Below, piece after piece: positions 15,469 through 36,351 of a stretch of DNA of 64,000 nt. The position numbers and the translations under genes were made by a program. Position 1 is the stretch's first letter. The number at the start of each line of letters is the position of its first letter. The notes beneath the pieces are model-generated. The model was not told the DNA's origin. It was given only the letters and a program-made list of their open reading frames with translations, and did no database searches. Origin of the DNA: Pigmentiphaga litoralis (GTDB taxonomy: Bacteria; Pseudomonadota; Gammaproteobacteria; Burkholderiales; Burkholderiaceae_B); contig NZ_JACCBP010000001.1 in the NCBI RefSeq assembly GCF_013408655.1, forward strand, positions 4,154,001-4,218,000, in the 5' to 3' direction.

Positions 15469-16089
15469 TCACTTGGGCCGGCGCAGCTTGAACAGACCTT
15501 CGGGCAGGACTTCAAAATAGTCCGCCGGACCGCCCGCACGGAGCACGTGGCCGGCATGGGCCGTGTCGTAGATGCCTTCCCGCAGGCTGGACGGCGCGAT
15601 GTGGATACCGACCACTTCACCCAGCACCAGCCAGGTCTCGACCTTCTCGCCTGCCGCACTCTGCAACTGGATCAGTTGTGACAGCCGGCATTCGAAGGAC
15701 ACCGGACTTTCGGCGACTCGGGGTACGCCCACGACTTGCGACGCAGCCGGGGTCAGGCCCGCCAACGCAAACTCGTCGACGTCGGGCGCGACCATCGCCG
15801 ACGTCGCATTCATGCGCTCGACCAACGGACGGGTCACCAGATTCCAGCAGAACTCGCCGGTGGCTTCGATGTTATGCAGGCTGTCTTTGGACCCGATGCT
15901 GGCAAAGCCCACGATCGGCGGCGTGTAGTTGAACGCGTTGAAGAAACTGTAGGGCGCCAGGTTCAGTACGCCTTGCGTCGATCGCGACGAGACCCAGCCG
16001 ATGGGACGGGGGCCGACGATGGCGTTGAACGGATCATGCGGCAGCCGGTGGCCCTGCGCGGGTTCATAGAAGTGCATGTCTTCTGACAC
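15469..16089 (-). CDS. Flavin reductase family (FMN-binding split-barrel) protein
   Basis: From GTG 16089 the protein has ~206 residues; AGAGGA lies about six bases upstream, whereas ATG 16077 has poor spacing. HDPFNAIVGPRPIGWVSSRS, LAPYSFFNAFNYTPPIVGFAS and WNLVTRPLVERMNATS are the conserved FMN-contact segments of the flavin reductase-like family. Such proteins supply reduced flavin to oxygenases or act alone. No two-component monooxygenase partner is adjacent. The gene borders the gene-free DnaA-box region. Confidence 0.87.
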   Translation of the reverse strand: MSEDMHFYEPAQGHRLPHDPFNAIVGPRPIGWVSSRSTQGVLNLAPYSFFNAFNYTPPIVGFASIGSKDSLHNIEATGEFCWNLVTRPLVERMNATSAMVAPDVDEFALAGLTPAASQVVGVPRVAESPVSFECRLSQLIQLQSAAGEKVETWLVLGEVVGIHIAPSSLREGIYDTAHAGHVLRAGGPADYFEVLPEGLFKLRRPK

Positions 16090-16456
16090 AGAAGTCCTCT
16101 TGCTAGTCAGGTGACGCATGCGGGTGATGCCGATGCGCGCGGAGATAGGGAGTGTGGCAATGAGCTTAGCACCGGCCCATTCGAAGGCGCTGGATGGGAG
16201 CGCAGGAATGACTTTACGAAATGCGAAGCGGTGGCTGTGCGCGAACGCCGTGAATTTCAGGCGACGTCTGGTCGATATTCCGGCGCGGAATACCCGCTCG
16301 CCTGTTAGTCCGTCGCTGCTACGACCTGGCTGGACCTTTCATGCGCTGGCACGGTGGCGTGTTCTGGTCGTGTTTCAGTACCGATCCGCTCCGTCTTCAA
16401 GCTTTCCCGGACACGAAGCCACGCGGCATTCAGCTGGAACCCGTCAAAACCTGGCC

Positions 16457-16680
16457 TGTGGATAAGCTCTAGCAAGGGCGTCTGTGCACAAGGTGTTGAG
16501 CCTTTCTGAACAAGCCGCTTTCCAAAGCCTTCGCAAAAAGTTGTCCAAGATTGTGTGCAGCAGATGACCGGGGTTGTGCGCCGTCGCGATCCGGTCCAAG
16601 ACCTTGATTGCAAAGCGGAATTCCGGGTTGTTCAAGTTATCCACAGCCTCCTATTAGCTGCCACTATGTAAATACATAGT
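16457..16680. other. DnaA-box module A
   Basis: TGTGGATAA (16457-16465) and the oppositely oriented TTATCCACA (16637-16645) start exactly 180 bp apart. Inside are GCGTCTGTGCACAAG (16478-16492) and CCTTCGCAAAAAGTTGT (16528-16544). A palindrome ACTATGTA-AA-TACATAGT (16663-16680) follows the second box. Each block has an equivalent in module B. Possible roles are DnaA binding, titration or reactivation, or an accessory origin element. Confidence 0.6.
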
Positions 16681-17099
16681 TATTCATGGAACACCGCTAG
16701 CTTTCCAGAACGAGAAGGATGGGTGCGTTCACAGAAGCAGATGCCAGGAAAAAGTCGGAGCAGAAGCCATGCAGAACGACACGTTCTGTATGCGCTTGGA
16801 TCGCTGGTTCGGTTCAACCAGCGTCAGGAAGAGCAGACAAATTGCTCAAAGTTTGTGCATATCGCCATGAATTAAGTGAATGATGCTTAAAAAGTGGGCA
16901 TTCGCGGGTTGATCGCCGACTTATGAACAACAAGATCCGGCGTCTGGCAGCGGAAATGGCGTCGCTGACTCACCGTTTTCTCGGAATTCGGGTGGCTTCA
17001 GAAAGGTCGCCGCCCGATTTCGTTGCTGTCTGACTGGCAAAAACAACGCCTCATTTCGAGTCAGAAAATTTTTTTTGCTGGGAAGCAATAATTTTCGCC

Positions 17100-17323
17100 T
17101 GTGGATAACGCCTAGGGAGAGCGTCTGTGCACAAGCTGTTGATGCGTTCTGCACAAACCGGTTTTGGCGTCCTTCGCAAAAAGTTGTTCATGTTCACGCC
17201 GCAGTAAACAGTCGACTTTCAAGGGTAAAAACAAGCTTGCAAGTCATTGATTTTGCTAAGCATTTGATGGTTGTTCCACTTATCCACAGACACTTACTAT
17301 CTGTGTGCTATCTGTACAGATAG
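17100..17323. other. DnaA-box module B
   Basis: Second copy: TGTGGATAA (17100-17108), GCGTCTGTGCACAAG (17121-17135), CCTTCGCAAAAAGTTGT (17171-17187), TTATCCACA (17280-17288) and the palindrome CTATCTG-TA-CAGATAG (17308-17323). The offsets +21, +71 and +180 from the first box are identical to module A, although the sequence between the last two blocks has diverged. Confidence 0.6.
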
Positions 17324-17648
17324 CTTTGAGTAATTCAACACATGCCTTCGCTCCACAGGGCTGTCCGGAACACCGGCGTGGCCGATGGACAAGGCCGAAT
17401 CGTTCCGGCATCCTTCAGGCTTCGCATCTCGGAAAGGATGCGTTGTCGAGGGAACTGGACTTCCTTCGCCAAGTTGCAAGCACGTGGAATGCACGGTCAA
17501 GGTCACCCGTTGGCGATGCCTGGCGATGGTCGGAATGCAGGCGGCCTTGCCTGGATACGAAGCCTGAACTCGGCCAGTTGTGCGCAGTGGCCAGACTGCG
17601 TAAAAAGCAGGCAGCGCGCCTTGTGAAGGGGCAGGTTGTTCACAGGCG

Positions 17649-17673
17649 AAAAAAAACCCGGCGTCGTGCCGGG
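17649..17673 (-). terminator. Rho-independent terminator of the aminotransferase gene
   Basis: Stem CCCGGC (17657-17662), loop GTCGT, stem GCCGGG (17668-17673). Eight A residues at 17649-17656 become the U-tract when read on the minus strand. It lies 31 bp past the aminotransferase stop. Confidence 0.8.
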
Positions 17674-17703
17674 CAGTGTGTGCAGTGCAGTGTCGCAGTG
17701 CAG

Positions 17704-18870
17704 TCAGACTCTCCGTAGCCGTTCGATGGCCAGATCGAGCGTCTCGGCGCGTTTGGCAAAACAGAATCGAACCAGCTGGCGGTTGGACGTGGCGGCATGC
17801 GGGTCGCCATAGAAGGCCGCGATCGGGATGACCGCCACGCCATGGTTCAAAGTCAGCCACCGCGCGAATTCCGCTTCCGGCAGGTCCGACACGGCGCTGT
17901 AGTCGGCCATCAGGAAGAAGGTGCCCGGGGAAGGCAGCACCTTGAAGCGCGTCGTGGCCAGGCCAGCAGCCAGCTGATCGCGTTTGGTCTGATAGAAGGC
18001 GGGCAGGTCCAGGTAGTGCCGGGGTTCCGCCATGAACACGGCCAGGCCGACCTGCAGCGGCGTTGCGACCGAGAACACCATGAACTGGTGCACCTTGCGG
18101 AATTCTTCGGTCATGTTTGCCGGGGCGCAGCAGTAGCCGATCTTCCACCCCGTGGTGTGGAAGGTCTTGCCGAATGACGAGATGACGAAGCTGCGGGCTG
18201 CCAGCGCCGGGCGACGCGCGACCGACGCATGGGGCACGCCGTCGAACACGATGTGTTCATACACCTCGTCCGAAATCAGGTAGATGCCCGTTTCGGCCAC
18301 GATGCGTTCAAGGGCATCCAGATCGGCGTCGTTCAACACGGCGCCGGTCGGGTTGTGCGGGAAGTTGATCATCAACAGGCGCGTACGCGGCGTGATCGCG
18401 GCGCGCACCCTGTCCCAATCCGGCCGAAACGTGGGGTGGGAAGGGGTGGGCGGGGTCAGCGCCACCGGCACGGGAATGCCGCCCGCCAGACGAATCGCCG
18501 GCACGTACGAGTCGTAATTCGGCTCAAGCACGATGACTTCGTCGCCCGGATGGACGCACGCCAGGATCGCGGTCATCAGCGCCTGGGTCGCGCCGCTGGT
18601 GACGGTGATATCGCTGTCGGCATGGTAGTTGGCGCCGTACAGCTGCGTCGTCTTCAGGGCGATGGCCTCGCGCAGGGCGGCGATGCCGGGCATGAAGGCA
18701 TATTGGTTGTGACCGTCCAGCATGGCCCGGTTCACGAGCGACAGCAGCTCGGGGTCCGGGTCAAAGTCCGGATAGCCCTGGCCAAGGTTGACGGCCTGGT
18801 GTTCAGCCGCGAGCCGGCTCATCACGGTAAAGATGGTGACGCCAACGTCGGGAAGTTTCGAGTTCAACAT
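17704..18870 (-). CDS. Class I/II aminotransferase, methionine aminotransferase (YbdL)-like
   Basis: From ATG 18870 the protein has 388 residues, usual for aminotransferase fold type I. SKLPDVGVTIFTVMSRLAAE and AVNLGQGYPDFDPDPELL open the protein. ITVTSGATQALMTAIL, NFPHNPTGAVL and ISDEVYEHIVFDG are cofactor-pocket motifs. SSFGKTFHTTGWKIGY carries the PLP-binding lysine. The pattern matches YbdL and kynurenine/methionine aminotransferases of the methionine salvage type. No strong ribosome site precedes the start, but upstream codons show no similarity. It ends at the terminator at 17649-17673. Confidence 0.9.
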   Translation of the reverse strand: MLNSKLPDVGVTIFTVMSRLAAEHQAVNLGQGYPDFDPDPELLSLVNRAMLDGHNQYAFMPGIAALREAIALKTTQLYGANYHADSDITVTSGATQALMTAILACVHPGDEVIVLEPNYDSYVPAIRLAGGIPVPVALTPPTPSHPTFRPDWDRVRAAITPRTRLLMINFPHNPTGAVLNDADLDALERIVAETGIYLISDEVYEHIVFDGVPHASVARRPALAARSFVISSFGKTFHTTGWKIGYCCAPANMTEEFRKVHQFMVFSVATPLQVGLAVFMAEPRHYLDLPAFYQTKRDQLAAGLATTRFKVLPSPGTFFLMADYSAVSDLPEAEFARWLTLNHGVAVIPIAAFYGDPHAATSNRQLVRFCFAKRAETLDLAIERLRRV

Positions 18871-19405
18871 AAGGAATGGGTCCCGGAGGGATAAGGGCAG
18901 CCGCGCCAGTCTACTCGTACCGCCGGGTTCCGCAGCCTGCAGGGGTCCGCGGCCGGCCGCCGCGTTACTGATTTTGCCTACTGTCGAGTATGTATTTATT
19001 ATCTCGGCGGCGCATCGAGGGCTGCCCGCGCACAACAAATCGAACCCGGATCCGTTGCACGGTTATTAATGCCGCCCTTAATGACGATGGCGCAAGAACG
19101 CAGAATGCGGCATACCAAATGGCATTCCGGCAGTAACTCGCACAGCGCTGGTGCACGCACGAAATCCGGTCCCAGAAAGGTGCGTATGCCCCGTTGTAGC
19201 GCCCCCTTGCGGCATTTCGCATACTTCACAAAAAGGGGTATTGATTCGCCCAATCCACGCAGGTATGCTGCATTTCGCAGTGGATTCAAGTATCACGCAA
19301 GTCCCGTCTGCCATCTGCGCGTGTGCGAATACCGCAGTCAGTTCGTGTCGGCGTTCTTGTTTTGCATTGTCTGATCTATTGGCACATATTTAGAGGACGC
19401 CGATC
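18871..19405. promoter_or_regulatory. Intergenic region with candidate cold-shock gene promoter and leader
   Basis: This 535-bp gap lies between the divergent aminotransferase and cold-shock genes. TTGATT (19241-19246) and TATGCT (19264-19269), 17 bp apart, are a plausible sigma-70 promoter. Transcription from it would give a leader of about 130 nt before the cold-shock start, in line with the long, structured leaders known for cspA-type mRNAs. No gene was recognised in the rest. Confidence 0.4.
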
Positions 19406-22907: not shown

Positions 22908-24143
22908 GTTTGTTGATCATTGTTGAACGTGCTCATTGGTGAATGCGGTCGTTTTTGAGCAGGTGTTGTAATTAGCCATCTAAGTAAAAAGATGGAGTCG
23001 GTTTTTTGTTTGAGGTCGGGTTTTTGGTTGTGGGTAGGTGCGGGGATGGGCGGGGGGCTGGGGCAGGGCGGGGCGGAAACCGGAAAAGGGTCTCGGTTGG
23101 AGGGAACGGTCGGTTGGGAGGCGACTTGGTGGCTGCTGGTTCCTGCTGGTCGCTGCGGATCGCGGACTGCGGCTGTGGATTGCGGCTGTGAACCGCGGCT
23201 GCGGAGGCGGGCTGTGGAGTTGTCAGGGTGACCTATGGCGACCCTTCAGGCGGCTTGCTTTCGCTGTTCCGCTGACTGGCGTCGCGATTTGGCAACTGAG
23301 ACCGCTTTCCCCATTTGAGCAAGCGAGCCACCATCAGTTTTCCTGTTTTTGACCGCTAACTCTAGAACTGGCTATGTCCTGGTTTCAGGGACGACAATTA
23401 CTGTCTGGCATTCAAATCGAGCTTTTAAGACGGCATGGAATGCTTTTGTGTTCCGCAGACATGGAAATGGCTGTTGGGCTCATTAGGCTCCCTTGGGCTT
23501 CGGACGACGGCCTTCTGCCTTGTTTCACGCGCGAAGGCTTTCGGCCCAAATGACCCGGTCGACGCACCATGTGCAAGCTCTCCAGTGGCTGATCGCTTTC
23601 AGTGATCGGTCCCATGCAGTGGACTCGATTGATTCGTACCAAACTTTGGCATTCGGTGGCCTTTTAGCAGGCCGCTCTCGTTTGTACGTGTTCCGACGTT
23701 ATCTTCCAAGCCGTGATAGTCGTCGGCGCGAGGCAGCCATATATCCCTGGGTCTTACTTTGAGTAAACGCTCCCTTGCGTACGGACCCGTTGGACCGGGG
23801 TGCGCGACCTGGACTTGTGGAGCACGGGTGGTCAGCGCGCCGCAGCGACGCAGCACAATGGCGGATGGCGACATCAACGTTCCCATGGAACACAGTGGAG
23901 ATGGGGGGGCCGCACGCTATGGAAAAACTGCCTTTCAGCGATCCGCGGGGGTTGGGAGTTTGCATGTTCGTGCGTACACAGCATTCCCTTTGAACGGGCC
24001 CCGCGCGTTTCTGACGCTTCTACTGCCTTTTTTCCCGGTAGCTCGGCTTGACCAGCGGCAGCCCGGAGGTTTTCAAGCTTGCGGCCAGCTGCTGCGGTGT
24101 TATCTGCGTGCCGTGCCGGGCCGACTACCCCAAAGCACAAAGC

Positions 24144-24187
24144 TGTGGATAACTGCTCTCAGGGTGATGTCGGCATATTGTGGATAA
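24144..24187 (+). other. Pair of perfect DnaA boxes, candidate oriC core
   Basis: TGTGGATAA occurs at 24144-24152 and again at 24179-24187, in the same orientation, 35 bp apart. Weaker boxes follow in the same orientation: TGTGGGCAA (24508-24516), TGTGGACAA (24631-24639) and TGTGGACAA (24665-24673). The 24.2-24.7 kb interval contains AT-rich tracts suitable for unwinding, and a parS site lies at 24325. Confidence 0.5.
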
Positions 24188-24324
24188 GTGTCAAACTTGT
24201 ACCTGCAATGTGGGCCTTTTAGGTGATTAGCCCTTCGCCACAAGGCAAATTGAAGGCGAGGCGGCTTCGCAAAGCGTTGTCATTGAGTGATCGTTGGTCG
24301 CCATTCATGTTTCAAGCTCGGGTT

Positions 24325-24340
24325 GGTTTCACGTGGAACA
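24325..24340. other. parS site 1 (ParB-binding)
   Basis: GGTTTCACGTGGAACA differs from the palindromic consensus TGTTNCACGTGRAACA only at the first base. ParB encoded at 33,527 would nucleate here for chromosome segregation. Confidence 0.8.
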
Positions 24341-24506
24341 CTCACAGATATACCAACTGAACCCTTACACTGCGCCACTTTCAAGCTTAATTCTCCATCC
24401 GTACACCCCGACCAGCCGAAATATCACCTAGAAAGCTTAGCGCACGCGTATCTGGAACCCTCAACCAGAAAGAGAAGATGGACTCATCGTCGGCTTCTTG
24501 TCGGCC

Positions 24507-24533
24507 CTGTGGGCAACTTTGGGGAAAAGAAGC
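24507..24533 (+). repeat. 27-bp direct repeat, copy 1
   Basis: This 27-bp stretch (key parts CTGTGGGCAAC and TTTGGGGAAAAGAAGC) is repeated without mismatch at 24973-24999, 466 bp downstream. It starts with a DnaA-box-like TGTGGGCAA. Confidence 0.85.
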
Positions 24534-24972
24534 GCCTCCAGTCGTTTTATAGACCAGAAAACAAATGCCTAATGGCGATGCAGCATTGTTTTCGACTACC
24601 CACCATTTTTCGGTATTCGGTGCATAACCATGTGGACAACTGCACGCCGGCAGATCCCTAAATTTGTGGACAACTAAGGCGACATACCCGATCGAGAAGG
24701 TCCAAAGATCGTCACAGCAGTCGTTTCACCCGCTTTGGTGCGAAGGATCCGATCTACGACGCGCGAAGCAACCTGGCGGATCCTCAGCACTCCTGCTGTG
24801 GCGATCACGACGCCGAGTTTCCAGCACCTTGCTCAAGTTCGCACTGGTTCTCAGCATTCCGACCGGACACAACCGTAATGCCGCTGAATGCCCGTGTCAG
24901 TCACACACTTGCGGCAGGTTCCACGTTCAACGTCACGGAAAGGATGGAGCGGGGGGCTCGCGACCAAGCGCG

Positions 24973-24999
24973 CTGTGGGCAACTTTGGGGAAAAGAAGC
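24973..24999 (+). repeat. 27-bp direct repeat, copy 2
   Basis: Identical to 24507-24533 and in the same orientation. The flanking bases differ, so the repeat ends sharply on both sides. Confidence 0.85.
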
Positions 25000-26196
25000 A
25001 GTGTGAGCCTCCGTGTGACGGTGGGTGGGCGTGCCCAATTCATGGACAACGCAGATTCGGTGGTCTGTGGCCTATCAGCTGAACCTTTGCCTCCTCCTTA
25101 CGCGATTCGTCGGTCAAAAGGCAGAGCGGCCCTGCCAGCCATCCCCATCTGTGCCATGTCCAAAGGCACGCCTGCAAGAGCAGCGCAGGTGATGGTCGAC
25201 GGCCAGATGGCGTCAATGAGGAGGCCGAGCACTGTGCGCCTTGGCGTGCCCCTAGCCATGGCGTCTTCGCCCGCCCATCCCAAAGACGTTGAAGCCCAGT
25301 AGATACAGAGTGCGATGGCCTACTCGGTTAGACCGCGACCAGCGCGGAGGCCGCGCACTGTTATCCGCGCCGGACCCGCGTTCATGGCGCGCGTGAGTAG
25401 CAGATAAGCGCAGAAGGTGCCTTGCGATAACAGACGCACGTAGCTAACCACACGGCACCCCGCACGTTGCTGGGCGCCGCCGCCAAGACATGGCGTGCGT
25501 AGTGGCAGCGGATCAGTTGCGGTCAGCTTGGTCACTACATGAAGTCCCAAGCGAGTGAACCGCGGATGGCTGGGGACCGGAAGATGATTCTTCGGACCCG
25601 CCATCGCATGGTCGGGCAGACATGACGGGCTTGGTACGGCGGACACGGCACGGCAGACAAGGCGAGGCGTGACCACGCAGGTGCGTTGCTAGAGGAATGC
25701 GCCTCGGCAAGATGCCCAGACTTCATTCGTAATTGCCAGGGCGCAGCGTGGCAGGGCCGGCAGCCACGACGACTGAGAGCTACCGAACGATCAGGGGATC
25801 CCGCTTATCGGACCGACATATTGGACCTCCTATCGACAGGCGGGAACGGGGCCAGGCGGGCAGACTACAGCGCGTGCGCCGTGGGGCAACGGCAGCTTAA
25901 GTTCCATATGCCTCACCAAGGGTCGCGGGCCGACATAAGCAACATTGGGACGCTTGGACGCTGAGACGCTGGATGGCGGGGCAGGCAAGCCGGGCAGATT
26001 AGCCGCTACCGGTGATGGCTTGCTGGCTGACACAGAGCCCCCGCGGACGCTGGAACGCGCGCGAAGCGGAGGGCAGGTCATGTGTGTCGGTGTGCAATCC
26101 GCTCGGCAGGGCGAGGGGGTGGCTGAGGTGAACACATCGCACAACCTGGTAGAACCCGAAAGGGTAGCTGTCAGGCCACTGGTGGTGTGGCGTGAG

Positions 26197-27010
26197 CAGT
26201 AGGAGGCGGACAGTAGGAGGCGGTCAGTAGGATGCGGGCGGTACTAGGCTCACAGTTCTAGGGCGGGTGGCGGGAGGCTGGCAGTCCGAGGGTGGTAATG
26301 CGAGCCCAATGCGGGGCTGGCAGTGGAAGGCGGGTGTAGGAGGCGGCCAGCGGGAAGCTGGCCGTGAGAAGCGGGTTATTGCGAGACGGGCGGTTGCGAG
26401 GCGGGTAATGCGGGGCGGGTACTACGACGCGGGCTGTGCAAGCCGGCAGTGCGATGTAGGCAATGCAAGGCTGACAGTGGGAGGGGGCATTGGGAAGCCG
26501 GCAGTGAGAGGCGGGCTATTGCGAGGCGGGTAATGCGTGGCGGGTTAATACGACGCGGGCAGTGCACAGCCGGCAGTGCAAAGCCGGCAGTGCGAGGTGG
26601 GCAATGCAAGGCTGATTGTGGAAGGCCGCAGTGGAAGGTCAGCAGTGGAAAGCTGGCAGTGCGAGGCTAGTAATGCGAGCCTTGCGGTTGCGACGCTTGC
26701 AGTGGGAGTCTGGTGGTAAGGCGGGTAGTACGAGGATGACAGTGCCATGAGGGCAGTGGGACGCTGGTAATGGAAGGCTTGCAGTGTGAGCCTGCATTCT
26801 AGCTAGCAGTGCGAGGTTGGCAGTAGAAGGCGAGGCGGGCAGCGCAGGCCGCCAGTGCGACGTGGGCAATGGGAATCTGGCATTGGAATGCCGATAGTGG
26901 AGCTGGCAGTGGAAAGCCGGCGTTGGCCGGCAGTGATTGGGCGGCTGGCACGGTGAGCCTGTCGTAAGAAGCCGACGGTGGAAGGCTGGCAATGGGAGCT
27001 AGTACTGAAG
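26197..27010. repeat. Degenerate tandem array, ~14-bp unit, roughly 58 copies
   Basis: Unit close to CYGGCARTGCRAGG. A clear run of consecutive 14-mers near 26,570 reads CCGGCAGTGCAAAG, CCGGCAGTGCGAGG, TGGGCAATGCAAGG. Units vary at many positions and occasionally lose or gain a base. All open frames across it are repeat-derived. It shows no spacer structure and is not a CRISPR array. Confidence 0.75.
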
Positions 27011-27324
27011 CCTGATTCGCACTGGCCCAACGGCGAACATCGGGCAAGTCGATCGTCCTGTTCGACCACATTTAAGCGCGAGTGGTCTCCTCGTCTAGCC
27101 GCCGCGCTACGCAGAGGGTGTCTGTCACACCGGTGTTGCATGGCGGAAATGGCGCCTTAGCAGAGGCCGGCGATGAGAGCGTCCAGGGCATCAAGCAGGC
27201 CGAACCCGGTTGCCGGAGACTGGAACCACGTGAAACAAACGAACATCCTCAGATGCGCCGTGGCGGCGAAAAAGAGCGGTCAAGCAAGTTGCAGGCGGGC
27301 GTCGGTCGGTTGCCTGTTCCACGG

Positions 27325-28055
27325 GTACATCTGCCAGTGGCTGTTTCTCCCGGCGGCTGGAACTGCCGGCGGCTGATCTGCCAATGGCCGCATGTGCCAG
27401 TCGTTGCATAGCATCTCTCGGTGACTGCATCTCCTTGTGCCTGCACCTCCCAGTGGCGCGTTTGCCGATGGCTGCATTGACCGGCGGTTGCATCGCCCGG
27501 TGGTTCCATAGCGCGGTTCTTACATCTCCCGGTTCATGCACCTCCCGGTTCCTGCACCTTCTGGTGGTTGCACCTTCCGGGATCTGCATCTGCCGGTGAC
27601 TGCATCTCTCGGTCGCCACATCTTTAAGCGGCCACATATCCGGGTGGTTGCACCTTTCAGTGGCGCGTTTGCCGGTGGCTGGATCTCCCGGCGGTTGTAG
27701 GCATCGGCAGCTGCACCCGCCGCAGATCCGACCACCGGAGGTTGCAGCCGCTGGGAGATGCAGGCACGGGCAAATGCAGCCATCGGCAGAAGCACCCACC
27801 GTCAGATTCGATCGTCGGAAGTTGAAGCCACCGTGAGATGCAGCCACTGCGAAGGCATCCATCGGCAGATGTACTCATCGGCAGTTCCAATCGGCGACAG
27901 GTCCAATCACTGGCGGAGGCAACCACTGGCAGAGGCAACGGCTGACGGAGGCAACCACTGGCGGAGGCAACCACTGACAGAGGCAACGGCTTGCAGAGGC
28001 AACGGCTGGCAGAGGCAACCGCTGTCACCGTCAATCGCCGGCAGGGGCAACAGCC
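27325..28055. repeat. Degenerate tandem array, 16-bp unit, roughly 45 copies, strand switch near 27,700
   Basis: The left half repeats CTCCCGGTTCCTGCAC-like 16-mers, and the right half repeats ACTGGCGGAGGCAACC-like 16-mers. The right-half unit is approximately the reverse complement of the left-half unit, so the array is a large, imperfect inverted repeat centred near 27,700. Examples in the left half are TGCACCTTCTGGTGGT and TGCACCTTCCGGGATC; in the right half, ACTGGCAGAGGCAACG and GCTGACGGAGGCAACC. Open frames across it are repeat-derived. Confidence 0.75.
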
Positions 28056-28887
28056 TCAGCCACTCCAGCTCCGACAACCGAGACACCCGACTACTCGTCG
28101 GATCGAATAACGGGTAGGTTTGAATCACCGGTATGTACAGACAGGGAGATGCACCACTACGGCCGATTCCAACCGCCGATGGAGTCATCTACGGAAAGAT
28201 TCAGTCGCCGCCGCAAGCAGCTTGTCATAAGTCGGATGAAGCCGCCGAGTTGGGTGCCCGAGTTGGTGATTTTTGTAGCTACGCTGGCAGGTCTGGCGCG
28301 TGGGTGTGGTCCGCCCTCCTGACGTGGACCGACATATGCAACTGCAGATCTGTAGCTGATCGCTATTTGCGATAGGCTGAGAAGTGCAAGTCCGCCTTGC
28401 TGAACCACGCTTTGTCCCCGCTCTTGGTCGCTCCTCGCATCGTTCTATGTCGGCCCGCCGCTCAAAGCTCTCCCACTCGATCCTCGCCAAGTGGTCCCGA
28501 TTCGCCGTTGTTCGGACCTCGGCAACGCTTGCTTTCCCGGATCGCAAGCTAAGACGTTCTCGGCCACACTTGGCCTACTACGTTGTGGAACAGTTCCGTA
28601 CTCGCATCAGTGCGTGGGTTAGTGACCGAATGCGATGGGGTGCGTCATCGCGTCCGCATAGAGCTTCCTGACCGCCTTGCACTTGCCCACTCACTCCCCC
28701 GGGCGTCTGCCTGCGTCCTGCCCACTGGCCCAGTCCTACATGGGCGGGGAGGGCGCCGACCATGCACGTCCTGCCTCGCAAGGAACAATCAGGGACGTTT
28801 AAAGTCAGATATCTCCTGACGCTGCGGCGCAGTTTGCGGCTACCGAACGCTGGCGAGCAAACACCCAAGTGCGGTCGTCGCGGCGGA

Positions 28888-28903
28888 TGTTTCACGTGGA
28901 ACA
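28888..28903. other. parS site 2
   Basis: TGTTTCACGTGGAACA is a perfect match to the ParB-binding consensus. Confidence 0.92.
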
Positions 28904-29023
28904 TCACTGAGGATAAGGTTTCGGTTTCACGTTTTGCGACTCCAAGACGTGAACCGATGCCCAACTAGGCAAGCCGACCCAAATCGAACCTCTCTTAGCC
29001 ACAATCGGAAGGCACCGCGTCTT

Positions 29024-29066
29024 GTGGAAAAGGTTGGGGATAAGGCTGGGATAAGTTTGGATACCT
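29024..29066 (+). other. Cluster of weak DnaA-box-like 9-mers
   Basis: In the 43 bp after the cluster start, GTGGAAAAG, TGGGGATAA (29035-29043), CTGGGATAA (29046-29054) and TTGGATACC follow one another in one orientation, each one to three mismatches from TGTGGATAA. It lies between parS sites 2 and 3 and may be a low-affinity DnaA platform. Confidence 0.35.
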
Positions 29067-29202
29067 AGTTAGGAGCAATTAGCGCCATCATGATCCCCTG
29101 ACAGATGCGGCGAAACTGCACCCGTCGCAGCCCAAACGGCTGCATCGCAGACACGCAATCCCTGCCCACTGCTTAGCCCTCGCTCGCCCGCACCCGTGCC
29201 AA

Positions 29203-29218
29203 TGTTTCACGTGAAACA
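29203..29218. other. parS site 3
   Basis: TGTTTCACGTGAAACA is a perfect palindromic parS, 30 bp from parS site 4. Confidence 0.95.
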
Positions 29219-29232
29219 TCACAACTTTGCTG

Positions 29233-29248
29233 TGTTCCACGTGAAACA
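29233..29248. other. parS site 4
   Basis: TGTTCCACGTGAAACA is a consensus parS. Sites 3 and 4 start exactly 30 bp apart, about three helical turns, on the same face of the DNA, 60-80 bp before the mnmG -10 element. Confidence 0.95.
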
Positions 29249-29308
29249 TTGAACCCTGGCTTGTCGCCCGGATGTCCTAAACATTCGCCCACGGCAGCCC
29301 GACACACC

Positions 29309-29314
29309 TATAAT
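29309..29314 (+). promoter_or_regulatory. -10 element of the mnmG-rsmG-parAB promoter
   Basis: A consensus TATAAT stands 78 bp before the mnmG start. The -35 region is weak (TTCGCC at 29284-29289). No other promoter is evident before parB, so one transcript may cover mnmG to parB. Confidence 0.5.
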
Positions 29315-29391
29315 CATGAGTCTTGCCTAAACTCTGTGCAGTTTTGGCGAGGCGACGGGACCGAGCCTGGATCCCTTACTGGATGCTCATT

Positions 29392-35810: not shown

Positions 35811-36040
35811 GAGATACGAAGGAGCTACGAAGGCGGAAGGCGGAAGGCGGAAGCAGGTTGGCACGGGTGGACCGGGTGGCACGGGTGGCACGCGGACAGG
35901 AATGCCTCTGCAAAAAACGCGCCGGCTTGCCGTGACTGGCCAACAGTGCGTTTGTGGAACGCGCCGGCGGGCAGGGCAGTTGAAGCAAAAACCACCTGGC
36001 CGCAGCAGCCCGAGCAGCCGCAACCATGCCCAGCAACGCC

Positions 36041-36351
36041 GATGGACCAGCAACGCCGATGGACCAGCAACGCCGATGTACCAGCATCGCCGATATACCA
36101 GCAACGCCGATGAACCAGCAACGCCGATATACCAGCAACGCCGATGAACCAGCAACGCCGATATACCAGCGACGCCGATGGACCAGCAACGCCGATATAC
36201 CAGCGACGCCGATGGACCAGCAACGCCGACACACCAGCAACGCCGATACACCGGCAACGCCGATATACCAGCACGGCCACCAGCACAGCCGCTATATCAA
36301 CACAGCCGCTAAACAAACCCAGCCGCTACCAACCCAGCCGCTACCAACACA
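36041..36351. repeat. Tandem array, 17-bp unit, 14 clear copies plus degenerate tail
   Basis: Unit GATGGACCAGCAACGCC, with variants GATATACCAGCAACGCC, GATGAACCAGCAACGCC and GATATACCAGCGACGCC partly alternating. Fourteen units occupy 36041-36278 without indels. More divergent copies (GCTATATCAACACAGCC, GCTAAACAAACCCAGCC) and 15-bp units GCTACCAACCCAGCC run on to 36351. The 598-bp gap between the CobW gene and the IclR gene is otherwise featureless. On the minus strand the array is open in all frames, giving repeated YRRCW/SIGVAG peptides. Confidence 0.92.

Follow-up and report, generated by a model that had tools for sequence, protein, structure and literature searches.

By the usual view a bacterial chromosome has a single origin of replication. 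In the oriC of E. coli weaker DnaA boxes lie between the outer ones, and the unwinding stretch is found beyond the R1-type box. Bipartite origins consist of two box clusters which share a single unwinding element, and the datA and DARS loci combine DnaA boxes with an IHF site and are not known to have an unwinding element. Two autonomously replicating origin elements were described in P. aeruginosa (Yee and Smith 1990 and Jiang 2006, cited after PMC4403523), and further candidates are given in Table 1 of PMC4403523 (Acidaminococcus, Dehalobacter, Ralstonia pickettii and Ochrobactrum); no member of Alcaligenaceae is among them. In Cupriavidus metallidurans CH34 the skew transition of chromosome 1 is preceded, according to PMC2864759, by three perfect DnaA boxes in 213 nt. 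The DnaA-trio and the BUS are described in PMC10225481.

The window analysed in this work (the whole stretch of DNA, 64,000 nucleotides) contains at 16120-17703 an intergenic region, flanked by genes for a flavin reductase (15469-16119, minus strand) and for a methionine-aminotransferase-like protein (17704-19038, minus strand). This locus is very probably oriC, and we hold with good confidence that the chromosomal origin consists here of two complete core units of the E. coli type, arranged in tandem in the same orientation, 643 bp apart. From left to right box, unit A, the mnmG-distal copy, extends over 16457-16645 and unit B, the mnmG-proximal copy, over 17100-17288 (both plus strand). Four perfect DnaA boxes, all TTATCCACA, are where an earlier sequence-only reading of this DNA had placed them: each unit has a left, R4-like box on the minus strand (16457-16465 and 17100-17108) and a right, R1-like box on the plus strand (16637-16645 and 17280-17288), forming two inverted pairs with the start-to-start spacing of 180 bp which had also been claimed. 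The two blocks said to be shared by the copies were likewise found in both, GCGTCTGTGCACAAG at +21 (16478-16492 and 17121-17135, plus strand) and CCTTCGCAAAAAGTTGT at +71 (16528-16544 and 17171-17187, plus strand); in unit A the first of these contains a one-mismatch DnaA box (16483-16491). At the offset of 643 the ungapped repeats comprise a 94-bp block (79% identity) and a 35-bp block (80%). The TTATNCACA sequence occurs six times in the window as opposed to 0.42 expected, and none of 100 shuffles contained six or more, thus the box pairs did not arise by chance. The frequency quoted earlier for a perfect 9-mer, once per 130 kb, is valid for uniform base composition only, with the composition of the window it is about one per 437 kb. 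The entire genome of 6.17 Mb has 14 perfect DnaA boxes, eight of which fall in a single 31-kb stretch, the one described here.

The part of the repeat between +88 and +180, which had been described as diverged, is not wholly so, because both copies contain at the matching place, 40 bp before the right box, a putative IHF site (16597-16609 and 17240-17252, both minus strand) with a perfect match to WATCAANNNNTTR, which we take to be the IHF consensus. The right boxes are followed by putative unwinding stretches (16646-16700 in unit A and 17289-17343 in unit B, plus strand), which look like a DnaA-trio joined to an AT-rich unwinding element, the resemblance to the trio having been judged by eye. 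Each copy had been reported to end in a palindrome. This is true of the second, a perfect 18-bp palindrome at 17307-17324, but the first (16663-16680) is an imperfect inverted repeat with 8-bp arms around a non-pairing AA; both fall inside the unwinding stretches. Set beside the corresponding stretches of 67 units, those of the window match a family motif, which in other genera is typically like CACCCATTAGTATTAGTCTTTATATATA. The mean AT content reaches its peak of 0.77 at 20-40 bases counted from the start of the right box, in the 24 distal and in the 24 proximal copies alike, and is around 0.5 in the surroundings. With an AT content of 0.55-0.70 the unwinding stretches of the window are less AT-rich than those of the family. 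When one mismatch was allowed, the IHF consensus was found in 36 of the 67 units, in 34 of these at exactly -40 from the right box, whereas six of 134 control windows and 108 of 1340 shuffles had such a match at any position. A further 26 of the 67 units match it only with two mismatches, and five do not have it.

The units of the window thus display three features of oriC of the E. coli type: inverted outer boxes about 180 bp apart, an IHF site at -40 and an unwinding/trio stretch, the last with weaker AT content. From the established biology of E. coli we infer how they would work. The strong outer boxes of a unit, R4-like on the left and R1-like on the right, would be occupied by DnaA, as would the weaker boxes between them, IHF would bend the DNA between the outer boxes of each unit, and DnaA would then pass from the R1-like box onto the adjoining trio-like/AT-rich stretch and melt it for helicase loading.

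Absence of the boxes and of their spacing from close relatives had been named beforehand as a ground for giving up the idea of a selected DnaA-box architecture tied to replication. The comparison with relatives showed that the box pair and the spacing of about 180 bp recur, which supports this idea. A DNA search among 60 relatives gave matches in 11, i.e. in nine of the ten members of the genus of the window's species and in two further members of the family. The box-pair pattern was detected in 158 of 268 family genomes belonging to 32 of 43 genera (146 of the 222 genomes of good quality), the reversed-pattern control giving zero; a perfect pair is present once in 135 of these 158 genomes and was not found in the other 110 of the 268. 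These counts rest on perfect outer boxes, and diverged second copies were recorded separately, at the loci which were scanned with the profile described below. In all 28 relatives examined with both on one contig the unit nearest to mnmG is 1.6-16.6 kb from that gene, and in the window the distance is 12 kb. In one genome, G008, the box pair is present, but not in the 20 kb scanned near mnmG; the unit may sit just beyond this stretch, since a response-regulator gene lies at its edge.

Closest in detail is the relative G006, the only one among the loci scanned (up to three mismatches allowed) in which the blocks at +21 and +71 are in register. From box to box unit A is identical with its counterpart in G006 at 152 of 188 positions and unit B at 153 of 189 (81%), and the unwinding stretches are identical at 52 of 55 and 53 of 55 positions (95% and 96%, respectively). 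The flanking genes are 87% and the intergenic flanks 54% and 68% identical, as opposed to 43% for the spacer between the units (16721-17068, no strand; 151 of 348 positions, one gap column). Despite this low identity of the spacer, the distance between the right boxes is 643 bp in the window and 644 bp in G006, and the spacer is possibly under a length constraint. Past unit B a block at 17401-17480 is 88-95% identical in G006, its surroundings being less so. An inverted repeat with 24-nt arms (17414-17437 / 17545-17568) has one of its arms in this block.

That the repeats are a mobile element or the promoter region of the neighbouring genes is very improbable. The inverted ends could suggest terminal repeats, but there is no other full copy in the genome, the best other match being a 27-base fragment by dnaA, and a dispersed repeat was discarded as an explanation for the same reason. 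Moreover, the unit stays in place while its neighbours differ between relatives, with flavin reductase or Sir2 on one side and aminotransferase or a response regulator on the other.

To score candidate origins we used a profile built from 54 units, and ran it over 2.0 Mb of five chromosomes. Units scored 104-182 bits, anything else at most 47.9 bits. Most of the scored units had been in the training set, including units A and B of the window (163.9 and 152.3 bits), but the two units of G010 had not, and these scored 104 and 106 bits.

It is also necessary to consider that the true origin may be elsewhere, either beside dnaA, which is at 4147003-4148571 of contig C1 of the window's own genome (G000), 22 kb to the left of the units and outside the window, or at the pair of perfect boxes at 24144 and 24179, upstream of mnmG. 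This second place is the other cluster, 7 kb away, to which the earlier reading had pointed. It does contain a perfect pair, in direct orientation and 35 bp apart, and this pair recurs in G006 and has a parS-like site nearby, but it scored only 6.6 bits with the origin profile and was rejected as the origin. For the dnaA region speak a fragment of 23 bits just downstream of the gene, with an IHF-like site and a perfect box, and the position of the skew minimum in G000: at 4143440, near dnaA, it marks the left edge of a flat valley and is 27 kb away from the units. Such a valley, reaching from near dnaA to the units and lowest at its dnaA end, 26-27 kb off, was seen both in G000 and in G006, and the minimum of G010 is also near dnaA (26-33 kb from the units in the three genomes). 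However, neither the dnaA region nor the 24144/24179 pair has a full unit, and in G007 and G018 the skew minimum tracks the unit rather than dnaA: the distance between the unit and the cumulative GC-skew minimum of the roughly 400 kb examined is 1.0 kb in G007 and 4.5 kb in G018, with dnaA more than 100 kb away in both genomes. The turning point of a broken-line fit lies 35 kb off in G007, and in G018 the keto minimum is 30 kb from the unit. Skew therefore supports the units in two genomes, and in three (G000, G006 and G010) it does not separate them from dnaA. Taking these observations together, we regard an origin at either of the other two places as improbable.

What is established for oriC at 16120-17703 is the anatomy of the units, their conservation, the position of the skew minimum in two relatives and the recurrence of two-unit origins. 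The earlier suggestions about the function of the locus fared less well. An accessory part of the origin does not fit units which match oriC itself in the 180-bp spacing, the unwinding stretch, the IHF site and, in two relatives, the skew minimum, and a DnaA-titration or DnaA-reactivating locus fails to account for the conserved unwinding stretch beside each unit. Because of this stretch and of the skew position in G007 and G018, we set aside both as the main reading.

Several other features of this part of the chromosome are worth recording. The fragment downstream of dnaA (G000:C1:4146853-4146911, 7 kb left of the window) also has a trio-like start, and in G007 an oriC-like fragment of 47.9 bits with a degraded box lies just downstream of dnaA (C1, about 1624-1793); such fragments may be relics of an older origin at that place, or regulatory sites. 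The genes mnmG, gidB, parA and parB are at 29.3-34.5 kb of the window. No gene was recognised in the 6.4 kb between the PEP carboxykinase gene and mnmG (22920-29320), and the one 223-aa frame tested there had no Pfam match; this stretch contains degenerate repeat arrays with 14- and 16-bp periods (about 26180-28060) and parS-like sites at 24325, 28888, 29203 and 29233. A gene for a CobW-like GTPase has a 17/34-bp tandem array (36030-36273), with 14.4 copies of the 17-bp period, overlapping its longest reading frame in the 5' part. Searches of the window with ARAGORN (for tRNA and tmRNA) and with Rfam at gathering thresholds (for RNA families) gave no match. A candidate DnaA-regulated promoter or titration site is located at a great distance from the origin region, at G000:C1:813000-813022, where two perfect DnaA boxes in inverted orientation lie 14 bp apart.

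The tandem doubling of the unit is real and recurrent in the family. Two perfect units are present in 23 of the 268 genomes, in 11 genera, and the profile, applied to a selection of loci, added diverged second copies in G006, G010, G018, G113 and G114, which represent two further genera, so that doubled units are known in 13 genera altogether. A tree was made of 67 units, with seven genera represented by two or more tandem genomes (G212, counted among the two-unit genomes, was left out of it). In all 24 tandem cases on the tree the two units have the same orientation and are 345-4238 bp apart by profile match. In genera g6, g67, g60, g10 and g2 the distal copies form one starred clade and the proximal copies another, and the same was observed for G000 and G006 in g1; the two copies of the third g1 genome, G010, group together (94/80), and g64 is only partly resolved. 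Because within a genus the two kinds of copy usually fall into clades of their own, they appear to have outlasted speciation in most of these genera, both being maintained. The tree, with its open deep forks and with 11 changes required for the distal as well as for the proximal label, does not decide between one family-wide duplication and repeated duplication. Next to the proximal copy, on the side facing mnmG and no more than about 1 kb away, there is an aminotransferase gene; this was observed for 21 of the 24 tandem genomes and for each of the three two-unit genomes of g52 (see below), and suggests that the proximal copy is often at a shared place. The exceptions are G019, and G018 and G244, in which the stretch examined has a response-regulator gene there and showed no aminotransferase gene. 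In some genomes genes are located between the units (loci L315, L317, L318 and L307): a calcineurin-like phosphoesterase gene in G233 and G235, an asparaginase gene together with an isopropylmalate-dehydrogenase-like gene in G254, and a Fic-domain gene in G012.

Use of both units is a live possibility. The second unit could be used in the two ways discussed below, neither of which opposes the identification of the locus as oriC. One unit may be the working origin and the other a retained copy which titrates DnaA or tunes initiation, or the two may be halves of one bipartite origin; we regard this as a serious possibility, though short of probable. It is in line with the situation in P. aeruginosa, where one of the two origin-like elements alone is essential under usual laboratory growth (PMC4403523), and with the erosion of second copies in several genomes: the distal copy is degenerate in G010 and mismatched in both boxes in G018, the right box of the proximal copy is eroded in G113 and G114, and the left box of the proximal copy of G006, its unit B, deviates by a single mismatch. 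On the other hand, the window and G006 retain in both copies the unwinding stretch, the IHF site (at most one mismatch) and the boxes, the mean AT content at the unwinding position is equal in the 24 distal and the 24 proximal copies, and a pure titration site would have no need of an unwinding stretch.

Alternatively, both units may fire independently as origins, an idea to which we would subscribe only tentatively. It comes mainly from three of the ten genomes of the Advenella-like genus g52 (G103, G104 and G108), in which the two units have opposite orientations and are separated by 67-88 kb that include dnaA. Over 5000 bp G103 is 100% identical to a locus of Advenella alkanexedens LAM005 (Alcaligenaceae), and G000 is of the same family as G103. 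In all three genomes the raw GC skew, read in sampled segments, changes sign between the segments flanking each unit. To the left of unit a it was negative in 16 of 16 segments (G103 8/8, G108 7/7, G104 1/1), between the units it was positive in seven of nine segments in the half next to unit a and negative in eight of nine next to unit b (Fisher p 0.015), and to the right of unit b it was positive in all 12 sampled segments. Only sampled segments were compared, the dividing line being the midpoint. Such a trace is what two active origins would produce, but old rearrangements could produce it too. The third-codon-position skew, calculated by gene strand in frames guessed by a script, goes up, down and up on both strands in G108 and on the plus-strand genes only in G103; the minus-strand genes of G104 amount to few bases, and in the minus-strand genes of G103 the skew, in these guessed rather than annotated frames, rises steadily without a dip, which speaks against two active origins. 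It must also be noted that the three genomes represent one genus, hence one observation, that the remaining seven g52 genomes do not have two perfect pairs (six have none, one has one), and that for units 643 bp apart no comparable skew trace is visible. The more far-reaching proposal, that Alcaligenaceae have long kept two complete oriC units which both fire, in tandem in the window's species and, in Advenella, at a distance of 67-88 kb with converging forks in between, seems to us rather unlikely. Whichever way the second unit is used, doubling of the origin recurs within one family, the copies outlast speciation within genera and the spacings range from 0.35 to 88 kb, therefore it can be tested in natural isolates how a cell coordinates two oriC units, or why it keeps the second. 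The window's species and the related genera are good places to ask whether two start sites can be in use on one natural bacterial chromosome.

It is instructive to compare the two-unit origin with the described systems. With E. coli oriC it shares the inverted perfect boxes exactly 180 bp apart (R1 and R4, measured on NC_000913) and the vicinity of mnmG. The differences are that here two units lie in tandem, that mnmG is 12 kb away rather than adjacent, and that E. coli oriC scored only 7.1 bits with the family profile, so that the two resemble each other in layout but hardly in overall sequence. Like datA and DARS, the units combine DnaA boxes with an IHF site, but both have a conserved AT-rich/trio-like stretch beside them. 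The closeness of two DnaA-box clusters is reminiscent of the bipartite origins of Bacillus subtilis and Helicobacter pylori. Here, however, each unit appears to have a trio-like/AT-rich stretch of its own instead of a shared element, it is only in the three g52 genomes that dnaA separates the units, and in some genera other genes are found there. In C. metallidurans CH34 a box cluster is also present at the skew transition, about 90 kb from dnaA, but the passages of PMC2864759 on this region describe a single cluster there and no pair of units. The putative double origins of DoriC (Gao 2015, PMC4403523) are, like the units described here, candidates for two origins on one chromosome; in the open-licence PMC literature, judged by titles and abstract openings, we found no description of a double oriC in Alcaligenaceae. 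P. aeruginosa also has two origin-like elements on one chromosome, whereas the units found in this work belong to another family, occur in 13 genera and are mostly in tandem, in the same orientation, 0.35-4.2 kb apart (24 genomes).
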